Shown piece by piece: positions 1,601 to 13,455 of a stretch of 13,494 nucleotides of DNA. The position numbers were made by a program, and so were the translations under genes. The notes below the pieces were generated by a model. The model was not told the origin of the DNA. It did no database searches and saw only the letters and a program-made list of their open reading frames with translations. Numbering within the stretch: position 1 is the first letter of the stretch; each line of letters opens with the position of its first letter. The stretch is from Chlorobiota bacterium (GTDB lineage: Bacteria; Bacteroidota; Ignavibacteria; Ignavibacteriales; Ignavibacteriaceae): the NCBI GenBank assembly GCA_008363265.1, contig RHKR01000043.1, positions 1 to 13,494 of the forward strand. Reading direction: 5' to 3'.

Positions 1601-2443
1601 TTACTTGTGAAAAGTAACTTCCCTTATCTCCGTGTGCCAGGTTTCCGAGCCTTTGGTACCGCGTTCAGACTTGGTTTTGATGAGGATCAGAATGCCGTCC
1701 TTGGTGTAGAGGTATTCGGTAACTGAATTATAGCCTTTCCCCGAGGTGGTGGCTTTAACCAGACGGCGGCTTGCGTCGTAAGTGTATTTTGTGGTGTTTC
1801 CGGGGGTTTTGCCCGCGAATTCCTTCATTTCGATGATATTTCCTGCCTGATCGTATTTGTATTCCACCCTTCTGTCCCCCTCTGAACGAAGAATCAGTCT
1901 TTCATTTTTATCGAATTGCCACGAGAGGGAATCCGTGGCTGAAGTGTCGGCTGAGAATATCCTGTTAATCGATGCAAGTTTACCGGCCTTGCTGTAAAAA
2001 TACCTGTACGCGTTTTTCACCGAAGCGGAGGCAATATCGTAAACCTGCGCTTCACCGGTCCGGCCGGCTGAGTCGCGTGAGAAGTAGAGGCGCTCCACCG
2101 GGGTTGACAGGGTATCGGAGAGGGGACGGAACCTGACTATTCTCTCGACACTTCCTGATCCCGAATAATAGAACGAGTCAACCGTGGTGCCCGTGGAGTC
2201 GGTTACAGTAACCGCTATCGGAAAACCCTTGGGAGAGTAGTTGACCAGGGTTTTCACCTTTGCCTTTCCGGAGGGAATACCGTCCTTGGCGGTTGAGTAA
2301 AAACCGGCTTTTTCGGTTTCGATCTTTTTTGAGGAGATGTACTTTACATGCCCAGGCTGAAGGAGTTCACCGTGTGGGATGAACTCCTGCGCCTGAAGCG
2401 AAATTGCAAATAAAATGATTAGGGATAAGGCTCTTGCTGTCAT
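1601..2443 (-). CDS. Secreted YD-repeat-like protein, paralogue 1 (last gene of the tandem operon)
   Basis: 280 aa. A Sec signal peptide is visible (MTARALSLIILFAISLQA, cleavage before QEFIP). The mature part is beta-rich with degenerate YD-type repeats such as YKYDQAGNI and YTYDASRRL, in the style of Rhs/wall-associated repeat proteins. The protein is far too short to be an Rhs toxin, and no toxin tip or core-associated domain is visible. It shares its signal peptide/QxxIP junction and overall plan with the next two genes, so the three are paralogues. Its ATG overlaps the stop of the upstream gene as TGATG, implying translational coupling. It is probably periplasmic or surface exposed. The precise function is unknown. 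Confidence 0.85.
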   Translation of the reverse strand: MTARALSLIILFAISLQAQEFIPHGELLQPGHVKYISSKKIETEKAGFYSTAKDGIPSGKAKVKTLVNYSPKGFPIAVTVTDSTGTTVDSFYYSGSGSVERIVRFRPLSDTLSTPVERLYFSRDSAGRTGEAQVYDIASASVKNAYRYFYSKAGKLASINRIFSADTSATDSLSWQFDKNERLILRSEGDRRVEYKYDQAGNIIEMKEFAGKTPGNTTKYTYDASRRLVKATTSGKGYNSVTEYLYTKDGILILIKTKSERGTKGSETWHTEIREVTFHK

Positions 2444-3297
2444 CAGAACCGTGTGTAAAAGTATTGATTAACTTCGTACTCAGGAGAGCCGCTTGGCTTT
2501 GGGTTGAATGTCCGCCTGGTTTTTGTGACAAGACCATTTTCGTCGATCTCGTTGAATTCTTCGAGTGCAAACGCGTCACCTTCCATCCGGGATGAGAGTG
2601 TATTAGCCATCCCGTCATACTCTTTGGTTGTCACGTAAGTGGAAGAGAGCATTTCCATGGTCTCCTTTACGGGCAGTCCAATTTTATCGTATTCGTAAAC
2701 TATCGTATAGTTGGGATGGGTTTTCCTGACCAGCAATCCAGCCTCATAGTGGTAATAAGCCGAGGGATTTGAATAGGCACCTGTTGAGATAACCGAATCA
2801 GTTACCATTGCAAGTTCGCCATCGGAATTGTATGAATAAAGGTACTTGTTTGTCACGGCTCCGCCCGGATTTTCATTCCCTTTTTCGAATCTGTCGATGA
2901 AGTTGATCCTGCCGTCTTTCCGGTTGATGAAAAGAGTAACGGAAGTGGTGCTGACATCATCGCCCGAACCGGTGGTTTCCGTTTCGAAGATATTCTGAAT
3001 TTCACCCGCGCTGTTGTAGGCATACTCGATCTTGCGGGTTAACTGCCATTCAGGATTGAATGAGGTTACTTTAAGAAGTTTACCCTCTTTGTTGAACTCA
3101 AAGGTCTCTTTCCAGATGTTCTCATTCGAGGCCGGTTCAAATGAATTATCAGCCTTGAAAGCTTCGATCGTAAGGTATTTAATGCCGTTCATTTTCATTT
3201 TCGCGGCAAAAGCGGGCTCCATTTCGTCAAAATAGGGAATAAAATCCTGGGCGAACAGGGATGTAGCGAATGCCAGTAGAATAAATAATCTCTTCAT
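2443..3297 (-). CDS. Secreted YD-repeat-like protein, paralogue 2
   Basis: 284 aa. The signal peptide is MKRLFILLAFATSLFA, followed by QDFIPYFDEMEP, matching the A/Q-x-x-I-P junction of its two neighbours. Degenerate YD-like units run through the mature part (KIEYAYNSAGEIQN, KYLYSYNSDGELAM, IVYEYDKIGLPV, TTKEYDGMANTL). It ends with an aromatic strand (NQYFYTRF), similar to the end of paralogue 3. Translation starts 10 bases after the upstream stop, with a strong AGAGGAG ribosome-binding site five bases before the ATG. The stop overlaps the next start (TGATG). It is the middle gene of a three-gene operon of secreted paralogues. I do not recognise a specific function. Confidence 0.85.
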   Translation of the reverse strand: MKRLFILLAFATSLFAQDFIPYFDEMEPAFAAKMKMNGIKYLTIEAFKADNSFEPASNENIWKETFEFNKEGKLLKVTSFNPEWQLTRKIEYAYNSAGEIQNIFETETTGSGDDVSTTSVTLFINRKDGRINFIDRFEKGNENPGGAVTNKYLYSYNSDGELAMVTDSVISTGAYSNPSAYYHYEAGLLVRKTHPNYTIVYEYDKIGLPVKETMEMLSSTYVTTKEYDGMANTLSSRMEGDAFALEEFNEIDENGLVTKTRRTFNPKPSGSPEYEVNQYFYTRF

Positions 3298-3307
3298 GGG
3301 GCTCCTC

Positions 3308-4162
3308 TTAGATTGTCATATAAGTGTAACTTACGAGAAAGTAGCTTGGGGATGCTTCATCCGCACCTTTATAAACAGTTTTCTCCTGCATTTTCAGGCC
3401 TGATTTGGAGTATTTGAAGTCAGTTTTCTGGTCACTGAAAGAAGATTTGTATTCCTCTTTACTGATATTTCCGCTTTTGTCATAAGTGTAGACCGAGGTT
3501 TCCTCCATCGCGGTGCTCAGTGTGTGTTTCTTTGTGAGATTTCCCTTTTTGTCGTAGACATACTGAACTTCACCGATCGCGGTGGTCTTCTTGAAAAGTT
3601 TTCCCTTTTTGTCGAAGTAGTAAACATCCTTGATGTCGTGAGGTTCTATCCCGGGTTCGGGCATCAGGGAATCGACGATCGTTACAAGTTTCCCTTTTTT
3701 GTCGTAGTTGTACTTGACGATCCAGCTGGTATAAACCCCGTTGGGAGTATGATCGATCCTTTCGATCTGGAGCGGGTTTCCTTTGGCATCGTAAGTGAAT
3801 CGGGATATCTGGTGAATCTCCGGATTTGGCGACAATTCGAGACCGGGGCTCTGTTTGTAGACAGATTCTGTCAGGAGGTCACCTTTATAAGTGTAGGTGT
3901 AAAGTTCATTCTCGCCGCCGGCGAAATTTTTATAGACTATTTTTGTAACCTTGCCATCGGAATCAAAATCGACAAGATACTCGTGGGAGTTTTTTTCCTC
4001 TTCGAACTTGCTGTTCGTCGCGAAATGCTTGATCAGCAACTGTTTGATCTTCTCTTTCTTGATCTTCGCGCGGTATTCCTTCGTCTGATACTCCGGGTGC
4101 GGGATAACATCCTGTGCGGAAAGGGTAAATACTGCCAGAAGCAGCATAAGAACTATACGCAT
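3308..4162 (-). CDS. Secreted YD-repeat-like protein, paralogue 3 (first gene of the tandem operon)
   Basis: 284 aa. The signal peptide is MRIVLMLLLAVFTLSA, followed by QDVIPHPEYQ. The YD repeats are clearest here: FTYDAKGN (123-130), YDKKGK (153-158), FDKKGK (183-188), YDKKGN (203-208) and YDKSGN (227-232), so each unit is a short beta-hairpin. The protein is lysine-rich compared with its two downstream paralogues. The start is supported by AAGGA six bases before the ATG. It is the promoter-proximal gene of the operon. A candidate promoter lies in the AT-rich 4200-4240 segment. The function is unknown; a structural or surface role is plausible. Confidence 0.85.
   Translation of the reverse strand: MRIVLMLLLAVFTLSAQDVIPHPEYQTKEYRAKIKKEKIKQLLIKHFATNSKFEEEKNSHEYLVDFDSDGKVTKIVYKNFAGGENELYTYTYKGDLLTESVYKQSPGLELSPNPEIHQISRFTYDAKGNPLQIERIDHTPNGVYTSWIVKYNYDKKGKLVTIVDSLMPEPGIEPHDIKDVYYFDKKGKLFKKTTAIGEVQYVYDKKGNLTKKHTLSTAMEETSVYTYDKSGNISKEEYKSSFSDQKTDFKYSKSGLKMQEKTVYKGADEASPSYFLVSYTYMTI
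3540..3707 (-). repeat. Three near-identical coding repeats within paralogue 3
   Basis: The + strand string TTTCCCTTTTTGTCG recurs at 3540, 3600 and (with one extra T) 3689. On the minus strand each copy encodes the [Y/F]DKKG[K/N] core of a YD unit. This suggests recent internal duplication of the repeat unit. Confidence 0.75.
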
Positions 4163-4284: not shown

Positions 4285-4312
4285 AAAAGAGGGGGAAGTG
4301 AGGGTCTTCCCC
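4285..4312 (-). terminator. Intrinsic terminator of the kinase/receiver-HEPN operon
   Basis: A perfect 7-bp inverted repeat, GGGGAAG (4292-4298) and CTTCCCC (4306-4312), encloses a 7-base loop. On the minus strand it is followed by CTCTTTT. It begins about 18 bases after the stop at 4330. The + strand side is also followed by TTTT, so it may act in both directions. It separates this operon from the YD-repeat operon. Confidence 0.65.
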
Positions 4313-4329
4313 TTTTGTTCAGAATATTA

Positions 4330-5397
4330 TCAACGTCTCGAGTAAAGCAGTTCGCGGAGGTCCCTGTTCCCTTTCCCCTCAGAATTTTTAGCAATCGCCT
4401 CGATCTCACCGGTTTTGATCCCATCCCATTTCCCTTTGTTCGCGTACAACGCCAGCGCGATGCTGCAGTAGAGAACATTGCTGAGGCCGACGTCGAAAAA
4501 TTCATTGGGATGGACTGAGCTGTTTCTGTAGAAGTTCACTTTGTAGCCTGCTTTGGCGTAATACTCCGGAGTAAAGGAAACAATTGTCGTCAAGGCTGTA
4601 ACCTTATTACCGATTTCCCAATTCTCCGATTTCCCAATTAATTTAGCGATTGCCGGTTGATTACGGTTTGAGGCTGATAGAATTTCCTGATCTGTCTTTA
4701 CCCCTCTGCAGAACAATTCGAGACACCTGTGATAAAGTTGTATTACGAGACGGTGAATGATTTTTTCTGCATCCAGATTCTCTGTTTTCTTGAGTAGATA
4801 AAGTATAGACTCCAGATTGGAAATAATCTCGTACTGAAAACCCATATTTTCAATAGGGTCCGATGAGAATTTGGCGTTCGCCACAGATTCTTTGAAAATA
4901 TTATGATTTGCCCAAATATCCCAAAGTACTTTTTCCTTTTCCAATCTGTTGAAGAGTTCCTCAAAATTTTTGTTGACCCACTCAATATCACCACCGTCAG
5001 TGTGTGATTTATCAAATGTCTTTATGACCAATCCCTTTGAGAGAAGTTCTTCATATCCCTCCCACAGGTCCGCGGCCTTGAATTGACCTGAATAGGTATA
5101 GATATGCGTCAGGTTTGAAATTTCAAAGGCTTTTCTTATCAGTTGAAAGCCGGAATCACGCTTACCACCCTTGCGGTCCTCGGTAAAATCAATATCGCAG
5201 AAAAAGACCTCATATGGATTATTGTTCTTCCTGTAATCTTCGAGAATCTGGTCCGCCTTAACAAATGATTCTGCCTTGGTGATGTCAAAGGTGTCGTTGT
5301 TGCCGTATTTTTCAAGTTCATAATCGCGAAGATTATCGGTGATTATGTCCCTGGCCTCTTTTGTGTCCTCAGCAACCAAAATTCTAATCTTTTTCAT
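4330..5397 (-). CDS. Receiver-domain protein with C-terminal HEPN-like domain
   Basis: 355 aa. Residues 3-130 look like a CheY-type receiver: acidic pair E10/D11 after a hydrophobic strand, likely phospho-acceptor D68 in VFFCDID (D70 is an alternative), T101/S103 in IYTYSG, and conserved Lys K126 in VIKTFDK. A 12-residue charged insertion follows D70. No HTH or known output domain is present. Residues about 140-355 are all-helical and end with YRNSSVHPNEFF followed by a long hydrophobic helix. R291-N292-x3-H296 fits the R[N/D/H]x3-4H signature of HEPN ribonucleases, placed as usual just before the last helix. The inferred role is a phosphorylation-controlled RNase or RNA-binding effector. The gene overlaps the kinase gene by 14 bases and has AAGGA six bases before its ATG. 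The receiver call is firm; the HEPN call rests on motif and position only. Confidence 0.8.
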   Translation of the reverse strand: MKKIRILVAEDTKEARDIITDNLRDYELEKYGNNDTFDITKAESFVKADQILEDYRKNNNPYEVFFCDIDFTEDRKGGKRDSGFQLIRKAFEISNLTHIYTYSGQFKAADLWEGYEELLSKGLVIKTFDKSHTDGGDIEWVNKNFEELFNRLEKEKVLWDIWANHNIFKESVANAKFSSDPIENMGFQYEIISNLESILYLLKKTENLDAEKIIHRLVIQLYHRCLELFCRGVKTDQEILSASNRNQPAIAKLIGKSENWEIGNKVTALTTIVSFTPEYYAKAGYKVNFYRNSSVHPNEFFDVGLSNVLYCSIALALYANKGKWDGIKTGEIEAIAKNSEGKGNRDLRELLYSRR

Positions 5398-6313
5398 ATT
5401 GTATCCTTTTGGCGAAATTCAATCTTACTTTGGTGGTGTCGGACTCCTCGTCCCTGAAGTATCGAGTCTCTATTTTTAACAGGTCGACCCACTTTTTCAC
5501 AACGCGCATACCTACCTTGGAAGATTTTGGCATGTTTTCCGGGTCATCCATTAAATTTTTGTTAAACCAGTCAGCCAGTTTCTCAGAGATTGCTCCATTG
5601 TTAAAGATTTCCATCTCAACGAAATTAGCAGTTTCGTTGATACTCACTTCCACTTTGGGGTCATCTTCCGAGGTGTGCTTCATTGCGTTGCGGATCAGAT
5701 CTTTAACTATCAGAGGAATTGCATCCACAAATTCCTTTGTGATGCTTATTGTGGATTCACCTGATTTTGAAACCGGGATTTTCATACTCATCACGAGGTC
5801 CTGGTGTTCATCAGAGGATAGCCTTAGAGTGGAGATTCCATCTTTTATCAGTTCGATCTGCTGTTGAACAACTTCTTGCAGATCAAGTTCAGCGAATTCG
5901 TTGCTGTATGTTACATCCTTTCTCCTGAGATACAACAACAGCAACTGGGTAAGGTCTCTGATTTGCTTTGTGTGGTAGCTGGCCTTTTTAATTTTCGGGT
6001 TGTCAAGGAATTTTGACATTGCAGAAACTGCGACATAGACATCGGTGTTAATTGAGTGGGCGAGTTCGTCAACAATACGCTCCCAGGATTCGGCCTGCGT
6101 CTGGAGTTCTTTTTCCCGAAGGAGAGAGCCAACATTAAACTGCTTGGCCTCACCTAGTTCGCGGATATAATTGTTGAGATTTTTTTCCTTTTCGATTTCT
6201 CTCAAGCGGGTATTTTGGAGCTCTATCTTAAGACGATTAATTTCACGCTCAAGATCGCTAATTCTCTGTTCCTTGTTCTCTTCCACTTTCATATTCCCTG
6301 ATTTTCTCTTCAA
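5384..6313 (-). CDS. Soluble histidine-kinase-like protein (DHp + HATPase_c)
   Basis: 309 aa with no signal peptide or membrane segment. Residues about 12-75 form a charged coiled coil. A DHp-like helix pair follows, with candidate phospho-His H86 in DELAHSINTDVY. A GHKL ATPase domain covers about 190-300: N-box KDLIRNAMKHT at 204-214, a G1-like NNGAIS at 238-243 (canonical D of DxGxG replaced by N), and G2-like KVGMRVVKKW at 266-275. With no sensor domain of its own, input probably comes from a partner, plausibly the 405-aa protein encoded just upstream. Its output is probably the adjacent receiver-HEPN protein. The start is ambiguous. TTG at 6313 has GAGGA four bases upstream; ATG at 6292 has AGGGA closer by. 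Either start overlaps the upstream gene, so translation is probably coupled. The weak G1 box leaves open reduced kinase activity. Confidence 0.8.
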   Translation of the reverse strand: MKRKSGNMKVEENKEQRISDLEREINRLKIELQNTRLREIEKEKNLNNYIRELGEAKQFNVGSLLREKELQTQAESWERIVDELAHSINTDVYVAVSAMSKFLDNPKIKKASYHTKQIRDLTQLLLLYLRRKDVTYSNEFAELDLQEVVQQQIELIKDGISTLRLSSDEHQDLVMSMKIPVSKSGESTISITKEFVDAIPLIVKDLIRNAMKHTSEDDPKVEVSINETANFVEMEIFNNGAISEKLADWFNKNLMDDPENMPKSSKVGMRVVKKWVDLLKIETRYFRDEESDTTKVRLNFAKRIQYEKD

Positions 6314-7475
6314 TTATTCCTCTAAAAAGGTTGCCTGGATTCCTGTCCAAATTAAATACGGGTGAATATTCCTGCATAAGGGAATCGAAATTGAGTTTGA
6401 GATAATCATAATCCTCAACTAAAAATGAAACCGCCAGATTCTCTTTCGCCCACTCCCAAACATCAATATCCCCCAAGAAGGCTTTAAGAATTTTTGTTAA
6501 TTCATATGATTCCTGAGTGAATATCTTGCCATAAACCTGCTTTAAGTCGGACACGGCCATAAAAATGATCTGACTCCGTAAAGAGACATAAGTTTTTGCC
6601 TCCTTAACTGGAAATTCATTCCCTACGAAAGAGAAAACAAGCAAACCGGAAAGATTTCCAGCCTGCAAAGGGAAATTGTCAATACTAGATTTGTTATTTA
6701 AACTTGAGGTGATTCTTTCGCTTATTGGTAAAATGTTGATTTGTGAACCATCGAATTTTAAGGTTTCAGGGAAGGCCGCAGAGATTTTCTCGATTGTATG
6801 AGAACTGTAGGGTTTCGTCATACCATAATCTTCTGAACTTAAGTTTAGTTTTAACAACAATTGCTTAGTATCTTCCGTTGAGTGTTTTCTGCTAAGTCTA
6901 ATTAAGTGATTAAGGAATCGCACTGGATTCATACTGTCTGATGCCGAGACTTCAATTGAAACGACAAGATCCATTTTGTTATCTATAGCAGATTTGGACT
7001 GAAGGACGAATTTCTCTGGGAAAGCGTCCACAATTGTGGTAATTATTTCAGGCGGGAATTGCTTAAACTCTCTATCTCCTAGTCCAAGATACACCTGAAG
7101 ATCGTGCCTTAATTGCCTCTCCAGAACACCGACAGTTAGGTTCTTCCTGTTTCGGGAATTGAATATTTCAATCAAGATATCAGACGCCAACTCGAGAAAA
7201 TAATCTTTTGAACAAAATATTAGTTGCGAAAACTGATTGTTACTTATTTGAAAATAATAAATTGGAGCACCATACACATAATCTATGTAAAAAAAGTGGT
7301 GGTGTCTCAGCATCAGATGGGTCTCGAAAGGAATAACCAGAAATTGTTTGACTTCATCCTGACTAAAAAATCTATCTTCAGATTTTAATAGATTGTACAA
7401 AGATTGAACGTATCTCTCAGAGCCGGGCTTTTTGTTAATAAGTGCCATTCCTTTGTAGAGCTCTTCGGTGGTCAT
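6258..7475 (-). CDS. Unrecognised 405-aa protein, first gene of the sigma-54-driven operon
   Basis: I do not recognise this family. The start is placed at ATG 7475 (MTTEELYKG), because GGAG lies six bases upstream. An in-frame TTG at 7487 would place the ribosome-binding site inside the gene. The protein is cytosolic with no signal peptide or membrane helix. An aromatic stretch (HHHFFYIDYVYGAPIYYF, about 58-75) precedes a helical region. Two similar segments, IVDAFPEKFVL (about 148-158) and ISAAFPETLKF (about 231-241), suggest an internally duplicated small domain. The C-terminal 100 residues are acidic and helical. The gene overlaps the kinase gene by 35-56 bases. As the first gene behind the sigma-54 promoter, before a kinase lacking a sensor, it may be the sensor or adaptor of the relay; this is inference. 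It is the most AT-rich gene in the window. Confidence 0.75.
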   Translation of the reverse strand: MTTEELYKGMALINKKPGSERYVQSLYNLLKSEDRFFSQDEVKQFLVIPFETHLMLRHHHFFYIDYVYGAPIYYFQISNNQFSQLIFCSKDYFLELASDILIEIFNSRNRKNLTVGVLERQLRHDLQVYLGLGDREFKQFPPEIITTIVDAFPEKFVLQSKSAIDNKMDLVVSIEVSASDSMNPVRFLNHLIRLSRKHSTEDTKQLLLKLNLSSEDYGMTKPYSSHTIEKISAAFPETLKFDGSQINILPISERITSSLNNKSSIDNFPLQAGNLSGLLVFSFVGNEFPVKEAKTYVSLRSQIIFMAVSDLKQVYGKIFTQESYELTKILKAFLGDIDVWEWAKENLAVSFLVEDYDYLKLNFDSLMQEYSPVFNLDRNPGNLFRGIIEEKIREYESGREQGTEN

Positions 7476-7560
7476 TTTCTTCTCCAAAATTCCAATAATT
7501 AATCAACTAAATTAAACACTTTCAAGTTAATCGGGGTATTCACTCCCGTGCATTAGTTGC

Positions 7561-7577
7561 TCCAATAACCGTGCCAA
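7561..7577 (-). promoter_or_regulatory. Sigma-54 (-24/-12) promoter of the minus-strand operon
   Basis: The minus strand reads TTGGCACGGTTATTGGA. Against the consensus YTGGCACGrN3TTGCW it differs only at the C of the -12 GC, which is G here. The GG to -12 G spacing is exactly 10 bases. The predicted start site is near 7550, giving a leader of about 75 bases before ATG 7475. It points away from a sigma-54 activator gene encoded next door, which strongly supports function. Confidence 0.8.
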
Positions 7578-7595
7578 AGCGAGAAAGGGCCTGAG

Positions 7596-7625
7596 TTGAG
7601 CAAATAGGGTGAACTCTTGCGCAAA
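7596..7625. promoter_or_regulatory. Candidate activator-binding boxes (paired TTGnGCAAA)
   Basis: TTGAGCAAA (7596-7604) and TTGCGCAAA (7617-7625) are identical except for one base. They lie 21 bp apart start to start, two helical turns, and each contains a full or near palindrome (TTGCGCAA). They lie about 19-48 bp upstream of the -24 element and overlap the possible -35 of the activator gene. They could therefore serve operon activation and autoregulation. Enhancer sites usually lie somewhat further upstream. Confidence 0.45.
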
Positions 7626-7645
7626 GAAGTAAAATATCTTACATT
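7617..7645 (+). promoter_or_regulatory. Candidate promoter of the CARF-like sigma-54 activator gene
   Basis: TTG (7617-7619) is followed after 20 bases by TACATT (7640-7645), which fits a TTG...TAnnTT layout and gives a start site near 7652. The ATG at 7667 has no Shine-Dalgarno but sits in an A/T-rich leader, common in Bacteroidota. The element overlaps the second TTGnGCAAA box. Confidence 0.3.
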
Positions 7646-7666
7646 AAAAATAAAAATATTTACTTT

Positions 7667-9139
7667 ATGCGAATCTTATTTACCTGGATAGGCCGGCAGG
7701 ATATAAACTCTGCCCTCAAGAATGAAGATGCTGCGATAGCCGTGGCAGTTAGAGAACTCAATCCTGAAAGGGTGGTTCTGCTTAATAATTTTGATGAGAA
7801 AGAGATCGAATCTGTATTGGATCACTTGGCAACGGTCTCAGAAGCCAAAACCGAAATTCATCAGGTAAATCTTTCTTCTCCCACCCGGCATGAAGAGATT
7901 TATCCGGCCGTTCTCAAGATCGTGAACGAAACTAAAGCCAAAGTTCCCGGTGCAGAGTGGTACTTTCATCTTAGTCCCGGTACGCCCGCGATGCACGCGG
8001 TTTGGCTATTGATTGCCAAAACCCGGATTAAAGCGGAACTCGTCGAGACCACCACTGAAAAGGGATTCAGGATCGTTCAGCTACCCTTCACACTTTCTCT
8101 GGATTTTTACAAACAGATCGATCCCACATTCGTTACCCATCGCCGTTTGTTGAGCGCAGAGGAGCTTAACCGTGATCCTGACCTGAGCAATATCATCTTC
8201 CGCTCCGATAAAATGACCGCACTGCTTAACGATGCGATCACTGTTGCCGCATATGATGTACCAGTACTGATCGAAGGGGAAACCGGAACAGGAAAAGAGG
8301 TTCTCGCCGGTCTGATCCACAGGAAAAGCGGAAGGGGGGACAAACCTTTCATCGCCATCAATTGTGGTGCCATACCGAAGGAGATAATTGAGTCGGAGCT
8401 TTTCGGTCACACCAAAGGGGCATTTACGGGCGCGGTCGCCGATAAAAAAGGATACTTCGAAGCGGCTGGGGATGGAACACTCTTTCTGGATGAGATCGGA
8501 GACCTGCCCCTTGAAGCACAGGTGAAGATATTAAGAATACTGAATGACGGCACATTTTCCAGGGTCGGGAGTACCACCCCGCTGAAAAGCAACGCCAGGA
8601 TCATTGCCGCCACACACAGGTCACTGTCTGTTTTAGTTACGGAACAAAGATTCAGGGAGGACCTTTTCTTCCGGCTGGCGGTTGTCAGGCTGTTCATTCC
8701 CCCGTTGCGGGAGCGCAGGGATGACCTTGTTCACCTGGCCCGGGCATTGTTCGCGAAGATGGCTGAATCGATGGGTCGCGGGGAACTCAATCTTTCTCCC
8801 GCCGCGGTTGAGGTGTTGCAGTTTCACGATTTCCCGGGGAACACAAGGGAACTGATCACCACACTTCAGAGAATGATAATCTTTTCAGGAAACGACGAAA
8901 TTGCAGCTGAGGATGCAGAAAAAGCCCTTCTGGAGCGCGCGTCAAGTGTCGACAGCCATGAACACCCAGTGGCGGACCTCAACATCAACAGCAATATTGA
9001 GGAGCTTTTCACCCGCCTGTACAACGAGGCACGCAAGAAAACGGGCAAGAAAAAAGAAATTGCAGCAATTCTTGGTTTCGACAACCATCAAACCCTCGAT
9101 AACTGGGTGAAAAAGTACTTCAAGCCGGAGAAGAATTGA
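7667..9139 (+). CDS. Sigma-54-dependent activator with N-terminal CARF-like sensor domain
   Basis: 490 aa. Residues 1-150 form an alpha/beta domain beginning with strand RILFTWIGRQD and containing HLSPGTPAMHAVWLL (101-115). A strand plus S/T-P/G-GT-x-M motif of this kind is the ligand-site signature of CARF/Rossmann-like sensors, as in RtcR and CRISPR CARF proteins. The sigma-54 AAA+ domain covers about 175-400: Walker A GETGTGKE (204-211), the sigma-54-contacting GAFTGA (251-256), Walker B TLFLDEIGDL (271-280), sensor I AATHR (314-318), the arginine-finger region FREDLFFRL (329-337) and sensor II GNTREL (391-396). A Fis-type HTH lies at about 461-485 (KKEIAAILGF...TLDNWVKKY). There is no receiver or GAF domain, so control is probably by a ligand binding the CARF-like domain. 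It is divergent from an operon with a sigma-54 promoter, its probable target. It is not RtcR itself, because no rtcA or rtcB is present. Confidence 0.92.
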   Translation: MRILFTWIGRQDINSALKNEDAAIAVAVRELNPERVVLLNNFDEKEIESVLDHLATVSEAKTEIHQVNLSSPTRHEEIYPAVLKIVNETKAKVPGAEWYFHLSPGTPAMHAVWLLIAKTRIKAELVETTTEKGFRIVQLPFTLSLDFYKQIDPTFVTHRRLLSAEELNRDPDLSNIIFRSDKMTALLNDAITVAAYDVPVLIEGETGTGKEVLAGLIHRKSGRGDKPFIAINCGAIPKEIIESELFGHTKGAFTGAVADKKGYFEAAGDGTLFLDEIGDLPLEAQVKILRILNDGTFSRVGSTTPLKSNARIIAATHRSLSVLVTEQRFREDLFFRLAVVRLFIPPLRERRDDLVHLARALFAKMAESMGRGELNLSPAAVEVLQFHDFPGNTRELITTLQRMIIFSGNDEIAAEDAEKALLERASSVDSHEHPVADLNINSNIEELFTRLYNEARKKTGKKKEIAAILGFDNHQTLDNWVKKYFKPEKN

Positions 9140-9194: not shown

Positions 9195-9839
9195 GTGAGA
9201 GCTGTGGTAACCGGCGCGACCGGATTGATCGGAAAAGAACTTGTGAAGCAATTGGCGCACAGCAGCGATTTTGAGCATGTCACCGTGATCGGCCGGAGAT
9301 ACCTTGATTATTCGCACCCGAAGGTTGGGCAGCACATCGCTGATCTTGGTAATCCGGCCGCCATCCGTCCGTACATGCGGGGGGATGTGATGTTCTGCGC
9401 GTTGGGCACAACGATAAAGAAAGCAGGCTCAAAAGAAAATTTCAGACTTGTGGATCACCATTACGTGGTAACTCCCGCAAAAGTGGCGTGTGAAGAGGGT
9501 GTAAAGCAGTTCTGCGTTGTGAGTTCGATCGGCGCGAAAGCCGGGAGCGGCAATTTCTACCTCCGGACAAAAGGGGAGATGGAAAGGGATGTGGCGGCAC
9601 TTCCTTTCGCATCGGTACACATTTTCAGACCTTCACTTCTTTTGGGATACCGGGATGAGATCCGCCCGGGAGAGATGATCGCGGAGACATTCTTCAAGGT
9701 GTTCGGATTCATTTTCAAGGGCAAACTGAAAAGATATGCCGCCGTTCATGCATCAACAGTCGCGAAAGCGATGATCAAAGCCGCGCTTGAAGGTAAACCT
9801 GGTGTGAACATCCACGAGTCGGAGATGATCAGTGGCTGA
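9195..9839 (+). CDS. NAD(P)-binding atypical SDR, TIP30/HTATIP2-like oxidoreductase
   Basis: 214 aa, usual length for the family. The N-terminal Rossmann motif TGATGLIG has the GxxGxxG glycines at 7, 10 and 13. CALGTTIKKAGSK (68-80), VVSSIGAKA (108-116) and the YxxxK pair Y122/K126 match HTATIP2/TIP30-like extended SDRs. FRPSLLLG (144-151) is also typical. It is a cytosolic oxidoreductase of unknown substrate. The start is GTG at 9195, with AAAGG about eight bases upstream. The stop overlaps the end of the convergent lhgO remnant by 11 bases. Confidence 0.88.
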   Translation: MRAVVTGATGLIGKELVKQLAHSSDFEHVTVIGRRYLDYSHPKVGQHIADLGNPAAIRPYMRGDVMFCALGTTIKKAGSKENFRLVDHHYVVTPAKVACEEGVKQFCVVSSIGAKAGSGNFYLRTKGEMERDVAALPFASVHIFRPSLLLGYRDEIRPGEMIAETFFKVFGFIFKGKLKRYAAVHASTVAKAMIKAALEGKPGVNIHESEMISG

Positions 9840-10978
9840 AAACCTCCGAGGCGATATACTCACCGATGCTCAGTGAAGCTGTTGCGGCCGGTGACGGAGC
9901 GTTAAGCACGTGGAGCATGTTGCGGGTGTGTTTGAGGTAAAAGTCATCAAGAAGTTTCCCACTCCGGTCGAGTGCCTGGGCTCTAACTCCTGCACCGCCT
10001 CTCACCAGATCGTTTTCCTGAATCTCCGGCAGTAACTTCTGCAGCGCCCGCGTGAATGCACCTTTGTTAAGTGAACGGTATATCTCTTTCAAACCCATCC
10101 CCGCGAACTTTGAACCCATCTTTATATACCCCGGGTATGTAAGAAACTCAACGGTGTCCTCGATGCTGAAGTCGCCCCAGCTGTAGCCCTCACGCTTGAA
10201 GGCAGGCACGGCGTTCGGACCGGCCTCAACTCCGCCCTTTGCCATGCGTGTGAAATGCACTCCAAGGAAAGGAAAAGCCGGATCTGGAACGGGATATATC
10301 AGGTTTTTAACGAGATACTCTTTTTCGGGAGCGAGTTTATAGTACTCCCCTCTGAAGGGGATTATTTTTATTTCAGGATCAACGCCGCATTTTTTGGCGA
10401 TCACATCAGAGTGGAGCCCCCCGCAGTTTACGAGGTATTTTGCCGTGATGTCGCCCTGCGTTGTGAGGGCGTGCAGCTCGTTGTCGCGTTCTTTAGGTGA
10501 TGAGTTCTCCCAGTTTTTCAACAACTTTTGTGAAATAAACTATGCCTGTCTGTGGAACGAACAGTCCCTCTATACCTGCGGCGTGGGGTTCATACTCGCG
10601 GAGTTCTTCAACAGTGAGGCGTTTGATGCCGGAGAGACCGTTCGCGCGTCCCCTCTCCTCGATATTGTTCAGGCGGGGGATCTCATCCTTCGATGTGGCG
10701 ACCACTATCTTGCCGCACTTCTCATGATAGATATCGTGCTCTTCGCAGAAACGGTACATCATCTCGCGGCCGGTGGTGCAGTTCTTCGCCTTAAGGGAGC
10801 CGGGTTTGTAGTACAGGCCCGAGTGTATAACACCGGAGTTGTTGCCCGTCTGGTGTTGGGAGAGGGCATTACCCTTCTCGATGAGGATAAGCTTGCTGCC
10901 GGGTTTTTTCTTTAGGATCGAGTAGGCCGTCGCGGCACCGGTAATTCCGCCACCGATTATCAAATAGTCGTAAGTCAC
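9829..10978 (-). pseudogene. lhgO: L-2-hydroxyglutarate dehydrogenase/oxidase, disrupted by a frame-shifting deletion
   Basis: The intact family (about 400 aa, FAD-dependent) oxidises L-2-hydroxyglutarate to 2-oxoglutarate. The 5' part (10978-10493, GTG start) encodes 161 aa, with FAD motif YLIIGGGITGAATA and the hallmark HQTGNNSGVIHSGLYYKPGSLKA region, then stops at TAA. The 3' part continues in another frame to 9829. It carries NCGGLHSD, IPFRGEYYKL, PDPAFPFLGVHFTRM, GPNAVPAFKREGY and the C-terminal NAPSPAATASLSIGEYI. Compared from memory with E. coli LhgO, about 16 residues that normally contain the GG-I-x4-V segment are missing at the junction (near 10495-10520), besides the frame change. 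The event is therefore a deletion of about 47-50 bases rather than a single-base error. Everything else is well conserved, so the lesion is recent or an assembly error. A TTG at 10524 could restart the 3' frame, but that product would lack the FAD-binding domain. Confidence 0.88.
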
Positions 10979-11055: not shown

Positions 11056-11088
11056 TTTGTGCTCTCTTATGCCGGATCATTATATTTG
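11056..11088 (+). promoter_or_regulatory. Bacteroidota-type promoter of the CBM20-7TM-SpoIIE gene
   Basis: TTTG (11056-11059) and TATATTTG (11081-11088), an exact TAnnTTTG, are separated by 21 bases, the classical Bacteroidota arrangement. The implied start site is near 11095, 18 bases before ATG 11113. This also argues against the in-frame GTG at 11059, which would lie upstream of transcription. Confidence 0.5.
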
Positions 11089-11112
11089 CGGAAAGATTTA
11101 ATAAGAACCTCA

Positions 11113-13455
11113 ATGCGAATCATCATACCGGTAGTTCTGCTGCTTTTCTTCCTTTCAGGCTGTGGAGGTGGCGACACTTCGACAGTCACCTTCCGTGTCA
11201 CCGTGCCACCCGCGCTTACAGAAAATGGCGTTTTCATCACGGGCAATGACCCCGTGCTCGGTGATTGGGATCCCGGACGGATCAAACTGGAAAGGATCGA
11301 CGACACCACCTGGGCGCGATCTTTCTCACTCCCCAAGGGTAAGGAACTTGAGTTCAAGATCACAGGCGGCAACTGGTTGCGCGAAGCTGCCGACAGCGGA
11401 GGAAGGATCTCGGCAAATCTGAAGTATGAGGTTGCCGGCGATACCACTCTGAGTTTTTCTGTGCCCGCGTGGTTCAACAGCTACAGATCGGATACGTTGG
11501 TGATCACAGAAAAAAGGGTGGCTAAAGGCGCGCCTGAGCTCGATCTTTTTGGGGGATGGAGGTACGCTCCGGGAGATGACATCCGTTGGTCTGATCCGAA
11601 GACTGACGACAGCATGCTGAAAACGGTCAGTCCCCGGCTCCATTCCGACAGTTCAGCGACCCGAGAATGGCAGGGAACCGGCTGGTTCAGGATGCCGTTC
11701 ATTCTTGATTCCGCTTTGTGGGGCAAGGAGATCACGCTGATGGTTTGGGATCTTGGAGAGATCACGATCTGGTATAATGGTAAAAATATCTTTTCGGAGA
11801 CAGGGAGTGGAGACGAGCGAAAACCGTTTGTTTTCAATATGAGATTTGACACCGGAAGGGAGCACCTCCTAAGTGTCCGGTATGAAAACGGGGATATCCA
11901 CAAGTTTATCGACAGCCGGTTCAATACAGGTTTTGCGATCTCGATCATGAACACCGATTCGGCGTTCCTTGCGGTTGCCGAGAGCACCCGGTTCATGACC
12001 TTTAACAAGACACTCTTTTCAGTCGTGCCCGTCGTGCTGATAATGCTCCACATGTTCCTTTTCATATTCTACCCTGAGCAGAAGCACAATCTTTACTACG
12101 CGCTCTGTCTTACAGGATTCGCGGGGGTGGTCTGGTTCAATTACGGGCGCGCGACGGCCACCGGTACCGGGGATCTGCTCTTGGCTCATATTCTTGGCAA
12201 CATCGCGGTGCCTTTCGCCACAATGTTCGGCCAGCTGACAGCGTGGAGTCTGGTCAAGAGAACGATCCCAAAACGGTTGTGGTTCTACGTTGCCGGATTC
12301 GTGCTGATGATCATTCTGAATATTCTCACGACCTCGTGGTGGCTGGCGAGCCTGAACTACGTCTACTTCATTACAGCCATGAGTGATCTGGTGATATCGG
12401 TGTTAAGAACAGACAAAAAGGAGGCGCGGCACGGCGGCTGGCTTGCTCTCGCCGGGTTTGGACTTCTGATCTTCTTCGTGGTTTATCAGATTCTCCTCGA
12501 TTATGCCGTGATAGTCACTCCCTTTTTCGGTACCACTCAGGTTTACGTCTACGGACTGTTGGGTTTGGTGATATCCATGTCGCTTTACCTTTCCTATAAT
12601 TTTGCCTTTCTGAACAAAGACCTGAAGAAGCAGTTGCAAACCGTGAAGGAGCTTTCCGACAAGACACTCGAGCAGGAAAGAATTGCCGCCTCTCTTGAAA
12701 TGGAGAGAAGATTGGTGGAAGCGGAGAATGAGCGCCGGAAAGCCGAGCTTGAGGCAGCCCGCGATCTGCAACTTTCGCTTTTGCCAGCGAAACTTCCCGA
12801 TATACCTGGACTAGGACTGGCCTCACACATCGAGACAGCGACTGAAGTGGGTGGAGACTATTACGATTTCTTCAGGGGGGAAGATGGTTCACTCATGATC
12901 GCCGTGGGTGATGCCACTGGTCACGGTCTGAAGGCCGGAAACATGGTGATAGCCACAAAAGCACTGTTAAATTCGCTTTCGGGCAGTACCGTTCTGCCGG
13001 AGATACTGATGAGCGCAAACGGGTCGATCAAAAAAATGAACCTCAAGATGCTCACCATGTGTCTCGCGCTTGTTCGAATCAGAGGCGACGTCCTTGAATA
13101 TGCGTCGGCGGGGATGCCGCATCTGCTTATCCGCAGAGGTGATACGGGGATTGTTGAGCAACACCTCCTGAAGGCGATGCCTCTCGGTGCCTTCACCGGA
13201 TTCCCCTACGCAGGGTCTGAAATACCATTCCGGAAGGGTGACACTCTCGTTGTGATGAGCGACGGATTGACGGAGCTGTTCAATTCAAATGGAGAGACCG
13301 CCGGAATAGACCGTGTGGCGGAATGGCTGGCATCAGCGCCCGCGTCATCAGCCGGTGACGTACTGGCTTCAATCCGTTCGAATGCCGGAACATGGCGGGG
13401 CGATGAACCCCTCCGGGATGATCTTACGATCCTGGTCGTTCAAAAGAAAGATTGA
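11113..13455 (+). CDS. Membrane lipoprotein: CBM20-like domain, jelly roll, 7TM region, SpoIIE/PP2C phosphatase
   Basis: 780 aa from ATG 11113. This start is preferred because a lipoprotein signal (MRIIIPVVLLLFFLSGC, lipobox LSGC, C17) follows at once. Residues about 24-118 resemble a CBM20 starch-binding domain (FRVTVPPALTENGVFITGNDPVLGDWD..., then a W-containing strand and KELEFKITGGNW). Residues about 150-290 look like a galactose-binding jelly roll (GTGWFRMPF, ITIWYNGKNIF). Several hydrophobic helices cover about 301-500, like the 7TMR-DISM group. A coiled coil follows (about 500-560), then a SpoIIE/RsbU-type PP2C phosphatase with GGDYYDFF (580-587), VGDATGHGLKAG (598-609), MSDGLTEL (715-722) and DDLTILVV (769-776); the metal-binding aspartates are present. 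The likely role is to relay an extracytoplasmic, perhaps carbohydrate, signal to a cytosolic phosphoprotein such as an anti-sigma-factor antagonist. No anti-sigma partner lies in this window. Confidence 0.9.
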   Translation: MRIIIPVVLLLFFLSGCGGGDTSTVTFRVTVPPALTENGVFITGNDPVLGDWDPGRIKLERIDDTTWARSFSLPKGKELEFKITGGNWLREAADSGGRISANLKYEVAGDTTLSFSVPAWFNSYRSDTLVITEKRVAKGAPELDLFGGWRYAPGDDIRWSDPKTDDSMLKTVSPRLHSDSSATREWQGTGWFRMPFILDSALWGKEITLMVWDLGEITIWYNGKNIFSETGSGDERKPFVFNMRFDTGREHLLSVRYENGDIHKFIDSRFNTGFAISIMNTDSAFLAVAESTRFMTFNKTLFSVVPVVLIMLHMFLFIFYPEQKHNLYYALCLTGFAGVVWFNYGRATATGTGDLLLAHILGNIAVPFATMFGQLTAWSLVKRTIPKRLWFYVAGFVLMIILNILTTSWWLASLNYVYFITAMSDLVISVLRTDKKEARHGGWLALAGFGLLIFFVVYQILLDYAVIVTPFFGTTQVYVYGLLGLVISMSLYLSYNFAFLNKDLKKQLQTVKELSDKTLEQERIAASLEMERRLVEAENERRKAELEAARDLQLSLLPAKLPDIPGLGLASHIETATEVGGDYYDFFRGEDGSLMIAVGDATGHGLKAGNMVIATKALLNSLSGSTVLPEILMSANGSIKKMNLKMLTMCLALVRIRGDVLEYASAGMPHLLIRRGDTGIVEQHLLKAMPLGAFTGFPYAGSEIPFRKGDTLVVMSDGLTELFNSNGETAGIDRVAEWLASAPASSAGDVLASIRSNAGTWRGDEPLRDDLTILVVQKKD

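Follow-up and report, generated by a model that had tools for sequence, protein, structure and literature searches.

The window analysed here, a 13,494-nucleotide stretch of a Chlorobiota bacterium of the Ignavibacteriaceae (contig RHKR01000043.1, our C97), belongs to a 3.4-Mb assembly (GCA_008363265.1) of 627 contigs that is 82% complete. It carries a gene for a CARF-sigma-54 AAA+-helix-turn-helix (HTH) activator, divergent from a three-gene operon on the minus strand that encodes a 405-amino-acid (aa) protein, a soluble histidine kinase and a receiver protein with a HEPN-like C-terminal domain (receiver-HEPN; Table 1). The operon genes overlap by 35 and 14 bp. This compact divergent layout, proposed in a preliminary description of the sequence, was confirmed by the open reading frame (ORF) coordinates, the overlaps and profile matches.

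Table 1. Features of the locus; positions are counted from the first nucleotide of the window.
Feature	Position	Strand	Size	Remarks
CARF-sigma-54 AAA+-HTH activator, RtcR_PspF2 family	7667..9139	+	490 aa	PADLOC PDLC01995 and Pfam
Candidate upstream activating sequence	7626..7666			AT-rich AAGTAA/TTACTT repeats, beside activator start
Sigma-54 (-24/-12) operon promoter site	7561..7576	-		TGGCACG-N4-TTGGA, same place in 3/3 divergent loci
405-aa protein, probable sensor	6258..7475	-	405 aa (from ATG)	predicted winged-helix folds and C-terminal GIY-YIG-like domain
Soluble histidine kinase	5384..6292	-	302 aa	HATPase_c, H79/N202
Receiver-HEPN-like protein	4330..5397	-	355 aa	motif R291-N292-x3-H296
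Terminator-like stem-loop with T tract	4292..4312	-		18 bp past last stop codon

The linkage of these genes, presumed in that description, is conserved in other genomes. Eleven kinase/receiver-HEPN units were compared, namely those of the window, L046, L047, L048, L049 (two), L050, L005, L051, L052 and L053; the last three loci end at contig borders, and seven loci have complete upstream sequence. Kinase and receiver-HEPN genes were adjacent in all 11 units, and each of the seven complete loci contained a 405-aa-type gene and a CARF regulator preceding the operon. In some loci the 405-aa-type gene was weakly alike at best; both copies in L049, with no phmmer match to the window protein, were placed by position and alignment. 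In the window, L046 and L047, all of one genus, the CARF-sigma-54 activator is divergent and the sigma-54 site occupies the corresponding position. In L048, L049, L050 and L005, the CARF regulator is a shorter one of 322-327 aa and reads in the same direction as the operon. A tree of kinase and receiver-HEPN separated the three sigma-54 loci from the others (support 96; the regulator of L053 was unseen), so a single change of regulator would suffice. The receiver-HEPN gene was found in 8 of 80 genomes of the bacterial family (5 of 29 genera). Additionally, it was matched by 27 genomes in a phylum sample of 395, over the full length in four, all from the window's family, and mainly over the receiver part in the rest.

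The activator matched the PADLOC family RtcR_PspF2 (PDLC01995, CARF_AAA_HTH) at 508.9 bits over residues 1-484 of 490 (profile positions 1-478 of 481). Pfam recognised RtcR (26.3 bits, cut-off 23.1) and the sigma-54 AAA+ domain (Sigma54_activat, 222.4 bits, over the cut-off); the HTH was covered by the full-length PADLOC match only. The score against RtcR proper (NCBIfam equivalog NF038308) was 307.4 bits, below the curated cut-off of 650. With hhalign, the CARF part aligned to the shorter CARF regulators with a probability of 98.6 and to Csm6 of relatives with a probability of 60. A CARF-like N-terminal domain, as the preliminary description had it, was thus borne out by the Pfam, PADLOC and hhalign profiles. 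The strand-4 motif is SPGTPAM, and S[SP]GTP[AS]M was present in 16/16 CARF regulators examined. The motif differs from that of Csm6 of related genomes, with SGTP in place of SGTK (YTSGTKAMS in three of four by eye, and in the fourth as well by alignment). Since the basic residue of Csm6 is lacking, cyclic oligoadenylate is not our first guess for the ligand. In most RtcR-type domains no basic residue follows strand 4, and their ligands may be different ones (PMC4012209); the CARF domain of RtcR binds 5' tRNA halves with a 2',3'-cyclic phosphate end (PMC7790460). For the ligand, an RNA end would be our first guess and a cyclic oligonucleotide the second. A Cas10 palm model matched five of the eight module genomes, that of the window included, and gave a match in the E. 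coli control too. The match in the window's own genome (G000:C339:1793-2203) lies in an 808-aa frame, a possible source of cyclic oligonucleotides. A search of 196 genomes with the PADLOC family was swamped by other sigma-54 activators, and three of the matches listed begin at profile position 1. Matches to the CARF part were observed in frames of 507-540 aa in relatives without receiver-HEPN (G014:C198, G032:C38 and G097:C1), which are other CARF-sigma-54 activators.

The near-consensus sigma-54 promoter of the preliminary description also held, as it recurs at the same place in 3/3 sigma-54-type loci. The site, TGGCACGGTTATTGGA, lies at 7576-7561 (minus strand; the -12 GC reads GG), and the corresponding sites are perfect in L046 and score 19 of 22 in L047. 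Under our own weighting, only 11 sites scoring at least 19/22 occurred among 303,530 positions, those of the window, L046 and L047 included. The same description had mentioned paired upstream boxes, without stating a place; the obvious pair (7595-7605 and 7616-7625) was not conserved, being unseen in L046 and represented by at most one altered copy in L047. An AT-rich AAGTAA/TTACTT element is common to the window, L046 and L047 (P = 0.02, 0.002 and 0.16, respectively, against mononucleotide shuffles) and is a candidate upstream activating sequence. The expected terminator was found as a stem at 4312-4292 with a T tract, although such stems were not above chance by count (5 found, 4.9 expected).

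The kinase matched HATPase_c (Pfam) with 26.3 bits, just below the cut-off of 26.4, and its H79 (H-box) and N202 (N-box) were invariant in 11/11 units. The kinases are approximately 300 aa long, with no added sensor domain seen in the 11 units. Strong kinase matches in 146 genomes numbered 11, all within the eight receiver-HEPN genomes; ten adjoin a receiver-HEPN gene, and the eleventh (G034:C388) is cut off by a contig border. A genome without receiver-HEPN (G014) contained one partial match. At L103 (8781-11019; G025:C98), a shorter CARF regulator is followed by a 435-aa HATPase protein, in whose N-terminal part GVY...YIG can be made out by eye, and then by a 315-aa protein that is receiver-like by eye, with no Pfam receiver match; this arrangement may be another version of the sensor-kinase arm, in fused form.

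In the receiver-HEPN protein, the phosphotransfer residues of the receiver (acidic pair, Asp, Thr/Ser, Lys) were invariant in 41/41 relatives, and the fold was likewise that of a receiver domain. The C-terminal domain is all-helical. It keeps RNxxxH in 40/40 full-length homologues and 11/11 units, which fits the HEPN motif RX4-6H, usually RN...H.

The model of the 405-aa protein (predicted local distance difference test 80, predicted template modelling score 0.56) gave winged-helix matches with Foldseek and a match to the GIY-YIG domain of UvrC (probability 0.93, E 0.09); of the two models, VIA-align covered the receiver domain and the winged-helix region. A PDB profile search with the family returned nothing significant, and Pfam GIY_YIG_2 was above the cut-off in some relatives only. 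The GIY and YIG tyrosines are lost in most aligned family members: the window protein reads GLL and is without YIG, and one aligned relative (L005) keeps both. The fold resemblance stands, and by its model the protein looks like winged helices with a degenerate GIY-YIG-like domain. It is probably a sensor, with residues 1-265 evolving fastest, as expected of one. The near-constant last 55 residues were considered as a transferable tag and rejected, since a tail-only search, whose sampling favours shared words, gave 12 matches with one new protein and no other protein kind. This stretch is better read as the end of the GIY_YIG_2 domain, because Pfam GIY_YIG_2 aligns to it, perhaps with a contact to the kinase.

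The shorter CARF regulators carry the C-terminal domain of the NE0113 proteins of relatives (3/3 tested; E about 4e-17, 4e-17 and 1e-5; Pfam Cas_NE0113). Their C-terminus shows similarity to OmpR winged helices (hhalign 48 over 35 columns, against 0.2 for the reversed control), and a PDB profile search with these regulators gave nothing significant. For NE0113, a CARF family, direct regulation of transcription has been predicted (PMC4012209). Unlike NE0113/Csa3, the shorter regulators have an RtcR-like CARF part and head non-CRISPR defence operons. In L142, L144 and L145, Csm6/Csx1-like genes adjoin Cas_NE0113 genes; the C-terminal domain is common to these and the shorter regulator, and CRISPR and non-CRISPR CARF regulators of the group therefore share a DNA-binding part.

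Of 79 genomes, 12 contained full or near-full-length shorter regulators (14 loci), and 27 had some match. Downstream genes were readable at 13 loci (L005 included), and L108, L109, L111 and L112 had too little downstream sequence. Five of the 13 were of the kinase type (L005, L048, L049, L050 and L100, the last ending inside the kinase). The others were followed by Type I restriction-modification genes (L102, L104 and, with HsdR and a PDC-S02 gene, L106), AAA_15 ATPases and a small gene with weak similarity to NsnC or BrxL (L105, L107), PDC-S02/PD-DExK (L088), the HATPase gene (L103) or genes without a PADLOC match (L101). PADLOC-recognised defence genes were thus present at 6/8 non-kinase readable loci.

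Each of the two regulator types is accompanied by a conserved DNA element of its own. Between regulator and operon, no sigma-54 site of comparable score was found in L048, L049, L050 and L005; a palindrome around GCAACGTTGC lies there in the first three and half of it in L005. In L049 (8914-16670; G009:C31), the 405-aa-type/kinase/receiver-HEPN unit is present twice in tandem after one CARF regulator, with the palindrome before the first copy and a variant before the second. In the fetched loci, 325,658 bp in all, the 15-bp element TTGCNGYAAYRTTGC was present nine times, always 2-7 bp past the stop codon of a shorter regulator. These loci had been chosen for having the regulator, and a fair count has to cover whole genomes: 16 genomes contained 18 sites, nine directly behind a regulator gene and the other nine inside long ORFs, and the reversed pattern gave two sites. 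Position and specificity suggest that the element is the operator of the shorter regulator. The loci without an exact copy, L101 (one mismatch), L088 (degenerate), L106, L005 (half) and L109, argue against this.

We are moderately inclined to read the locus as a two-layer defence module with a HEPN effector, armed by the CARF regulator and resembling Detocs, a three-gene defensive two-component system (PMC11249213). In the first layer, the CARF regulator would sense a nucleotide or RNA-end signal from infection or RNA damage and would turn the operon on, here via sigma-54. In the second layer, the winged-helix/GIY-YIG-like protein would detect foreign or damaged nucleic acid and activate the soluble histidine kinase, which would phosphorylate the receiver of the receiver-HEPN protein; phosphorylation would free the HEPN RNase, with RNA being cut and growth stopped. 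The defence part of this reading derives from the company that the sister regulator keeps elsewhere, not from the window's own neighbours. The preliminary description had suggested a stress or anti-phage response in which a CARF sensor and an RNase are split and joined by transcription and a phosphorelay. The linkage, the CARF profile and RNxxxH lend this partial support, and none of the three outcomes named there as refuting it was obtained. The activator family is one already in PADLOC.

If the defence reading is true, the locus would be a two-component immune system in which the RNase is under double control, through a CARF-driven promoter and through phosphorylation, and sensor and HEPN RNase, fused in Csm6, would act as separate parts. 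A wider proposal, on which we are evenly divided, is that in these bacteria CARF transcription factors act as an arming switch that can be exchanged. One signal, an RtcR-like CARF domain and one 15-bp operator or sigma-54 promoter would then serve unrelated defence operons, including a phosphorelay immune system of winged-helix/GIY-YIG-like sensor, soluble kinase and receiver-HEPN RNase with positive feedback via cut RNA ends. Since the operator would tie different defence operons to one regulator, the ligands of RtcR-like CARF domains outside RNA repair become testable at a defined 15-bp element.

Several observations weigh against the defence reading. The receiver-HEPN assignment of the preliminary description stands for the receiver residues and RNxxxH, but HEPN was not recognised by sequence, with Pfam matching 0/41 homologues, a PDB profile search yielding none and hhalign of the helical domain to four Csm6 of relatives giving a probability of 0.1. 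Among PDB folds, the whole model was matched best by Csm6, but weakly (Foldseek E 5e-3, template modelling score 0.18). The Asp position of the kinase D-box is Asn in 11/11 units, and Cas10 was without a match in three of the eight module genomes. The distribution is narrow, within one family. The window locus has no shorter regulator, and the defence link passes through that sister regulator. No defence island was seen: the module's neighbours among the eight window proteins scanned are not defence genes and look ordinary. Mobile carriage was not found by alignment of receiver-HEPN to viral contigs and plasmids or of the kinase to phages, and an alignment of the shorter regulator to viral contigs gave no match, all for the queries used.

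The ordinary neighbours would suit a host stress response, in which the CARF activator senses broken tRNA like RtcR and translation is reversibly slowed by the kinase-HEPN relay. Fragments of tRNA are sensed by RtcR, and DNA damage leads to expression of its operon (PMC7790460); the operon of the window also seems to be chromosomal, the queries used having given no match in viral contigs, phages and plasmids. We nevertheless consider a stress role rather unlikely, given the patchy occurrence (8 of 80 family genomes), the fast change of the sensor part and a sister regulator that heads restriction-modification and other defence genes. The missing HEPN profile match and the GIY-YIG-like fold of the 405-aa family could also mean that the helical domain is no RNase, in which case the 405-aa protein would be the effector nuclease and the receiver-HEPN-like protein would do no more than regulate it. 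This is improbable, as the GIY/YIG tyrosines are lost in most aligned members and RNxxxH is kept in 40/40. Cam2, a receiver-domain protein, has been proposed as a cyclic nucleotide binder without a kinase partner (PMC11229360), and the atypical D-box would fit a similar arrangement here, with the receiver a ligand-binding switch and no phosphoacceptor, left unphosphorylated by the kinase-like protein. We would be surprised by this outcome, since the canonical phosphotransfer residues are invariant in 41/41 and both the kinase His and the adjacency of its gene are constant in 11/11.

Detocs has a stand-alone receiver gene, a sensor fused to the kinase, and PNP as its best-described effector. 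The module resembles it in being a small operon with a histidine kinase and a receiver-effector (11/11 units by domain content), and growth arrest or abortive infection would be expected. It differs in its HEPN-like effector, in having separate genes for sensor and kinase with a CARF regulator in front, and in having no third, stand-alone receiver gene in the 11 units. Because the gene set of Detocs is not reproduced, we file the module with the defensive two-component kind, regulated like RtcR/CoCoNuT operons, outside Detocs itself. With RtcR and RtcR-like regulators it shares the activator architecture and the sigma-54 promoter of the neighbouring operon. A link of such regulators to HEPN or restriction genes has been published as prediction, for CARF-sigma-54 regulators near restriction genes (PMC4012209) and for those in front of CoCoNuTs, with RNA-end sensing and HEPN-product feedback (PMC11090510). 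In contrast, the target here is a kinase/receiver-HEPN operon, and no rtcA/rtcB or McrBC-type gene was recognised in the window (McrB-type GTPase domain in 0/8 scanned proteins). As in Csm6/Csx1 (CARF-HEPN), a CARF sensor and a HEPN RNase with an RN...H motif would act in one pathway, but as separate proteins joined by transcription and probably phosphotransfer. The parts are of known kinds. The preliminary description had called the module a candidate undescribed one; this applies to the combination, as neither a kinase/receiver-HEPN operon nor such an operator was found in print in a partial coverage of the literature, but not to the activator family, which is in PADLOC, or to CARF-sigma-54 defence regulation, which the two sources above predict. 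In PMC13092281, HATPase and REC are named among predicted systems, a possible earlier sighting.

Other scanned window proteins were a ComM-like Mg-chelatase, an RHS-repeat protein, an NAD-binding protein and a SpoIIE phosphatase. At 1601-4162 (minus strand), three adjacent genes encode proteins of 280-284 aa that seem related to one another and look like secreted RHS-repeat proteins; of these, the last (3308-4162) was scanned. At 9829-10978 (minus strand), an oxidoreductase-like gene seems to be spread over two overlapping frames (10493-10978 and 9829-10524), which gives it the look of a broken or misassembled gene. The gene at 11059-13455 (plus strand) combines a starch-binding-like domain (CBM_20), a probable membrane part and a SpoIIE-type phosphatase in one protein.

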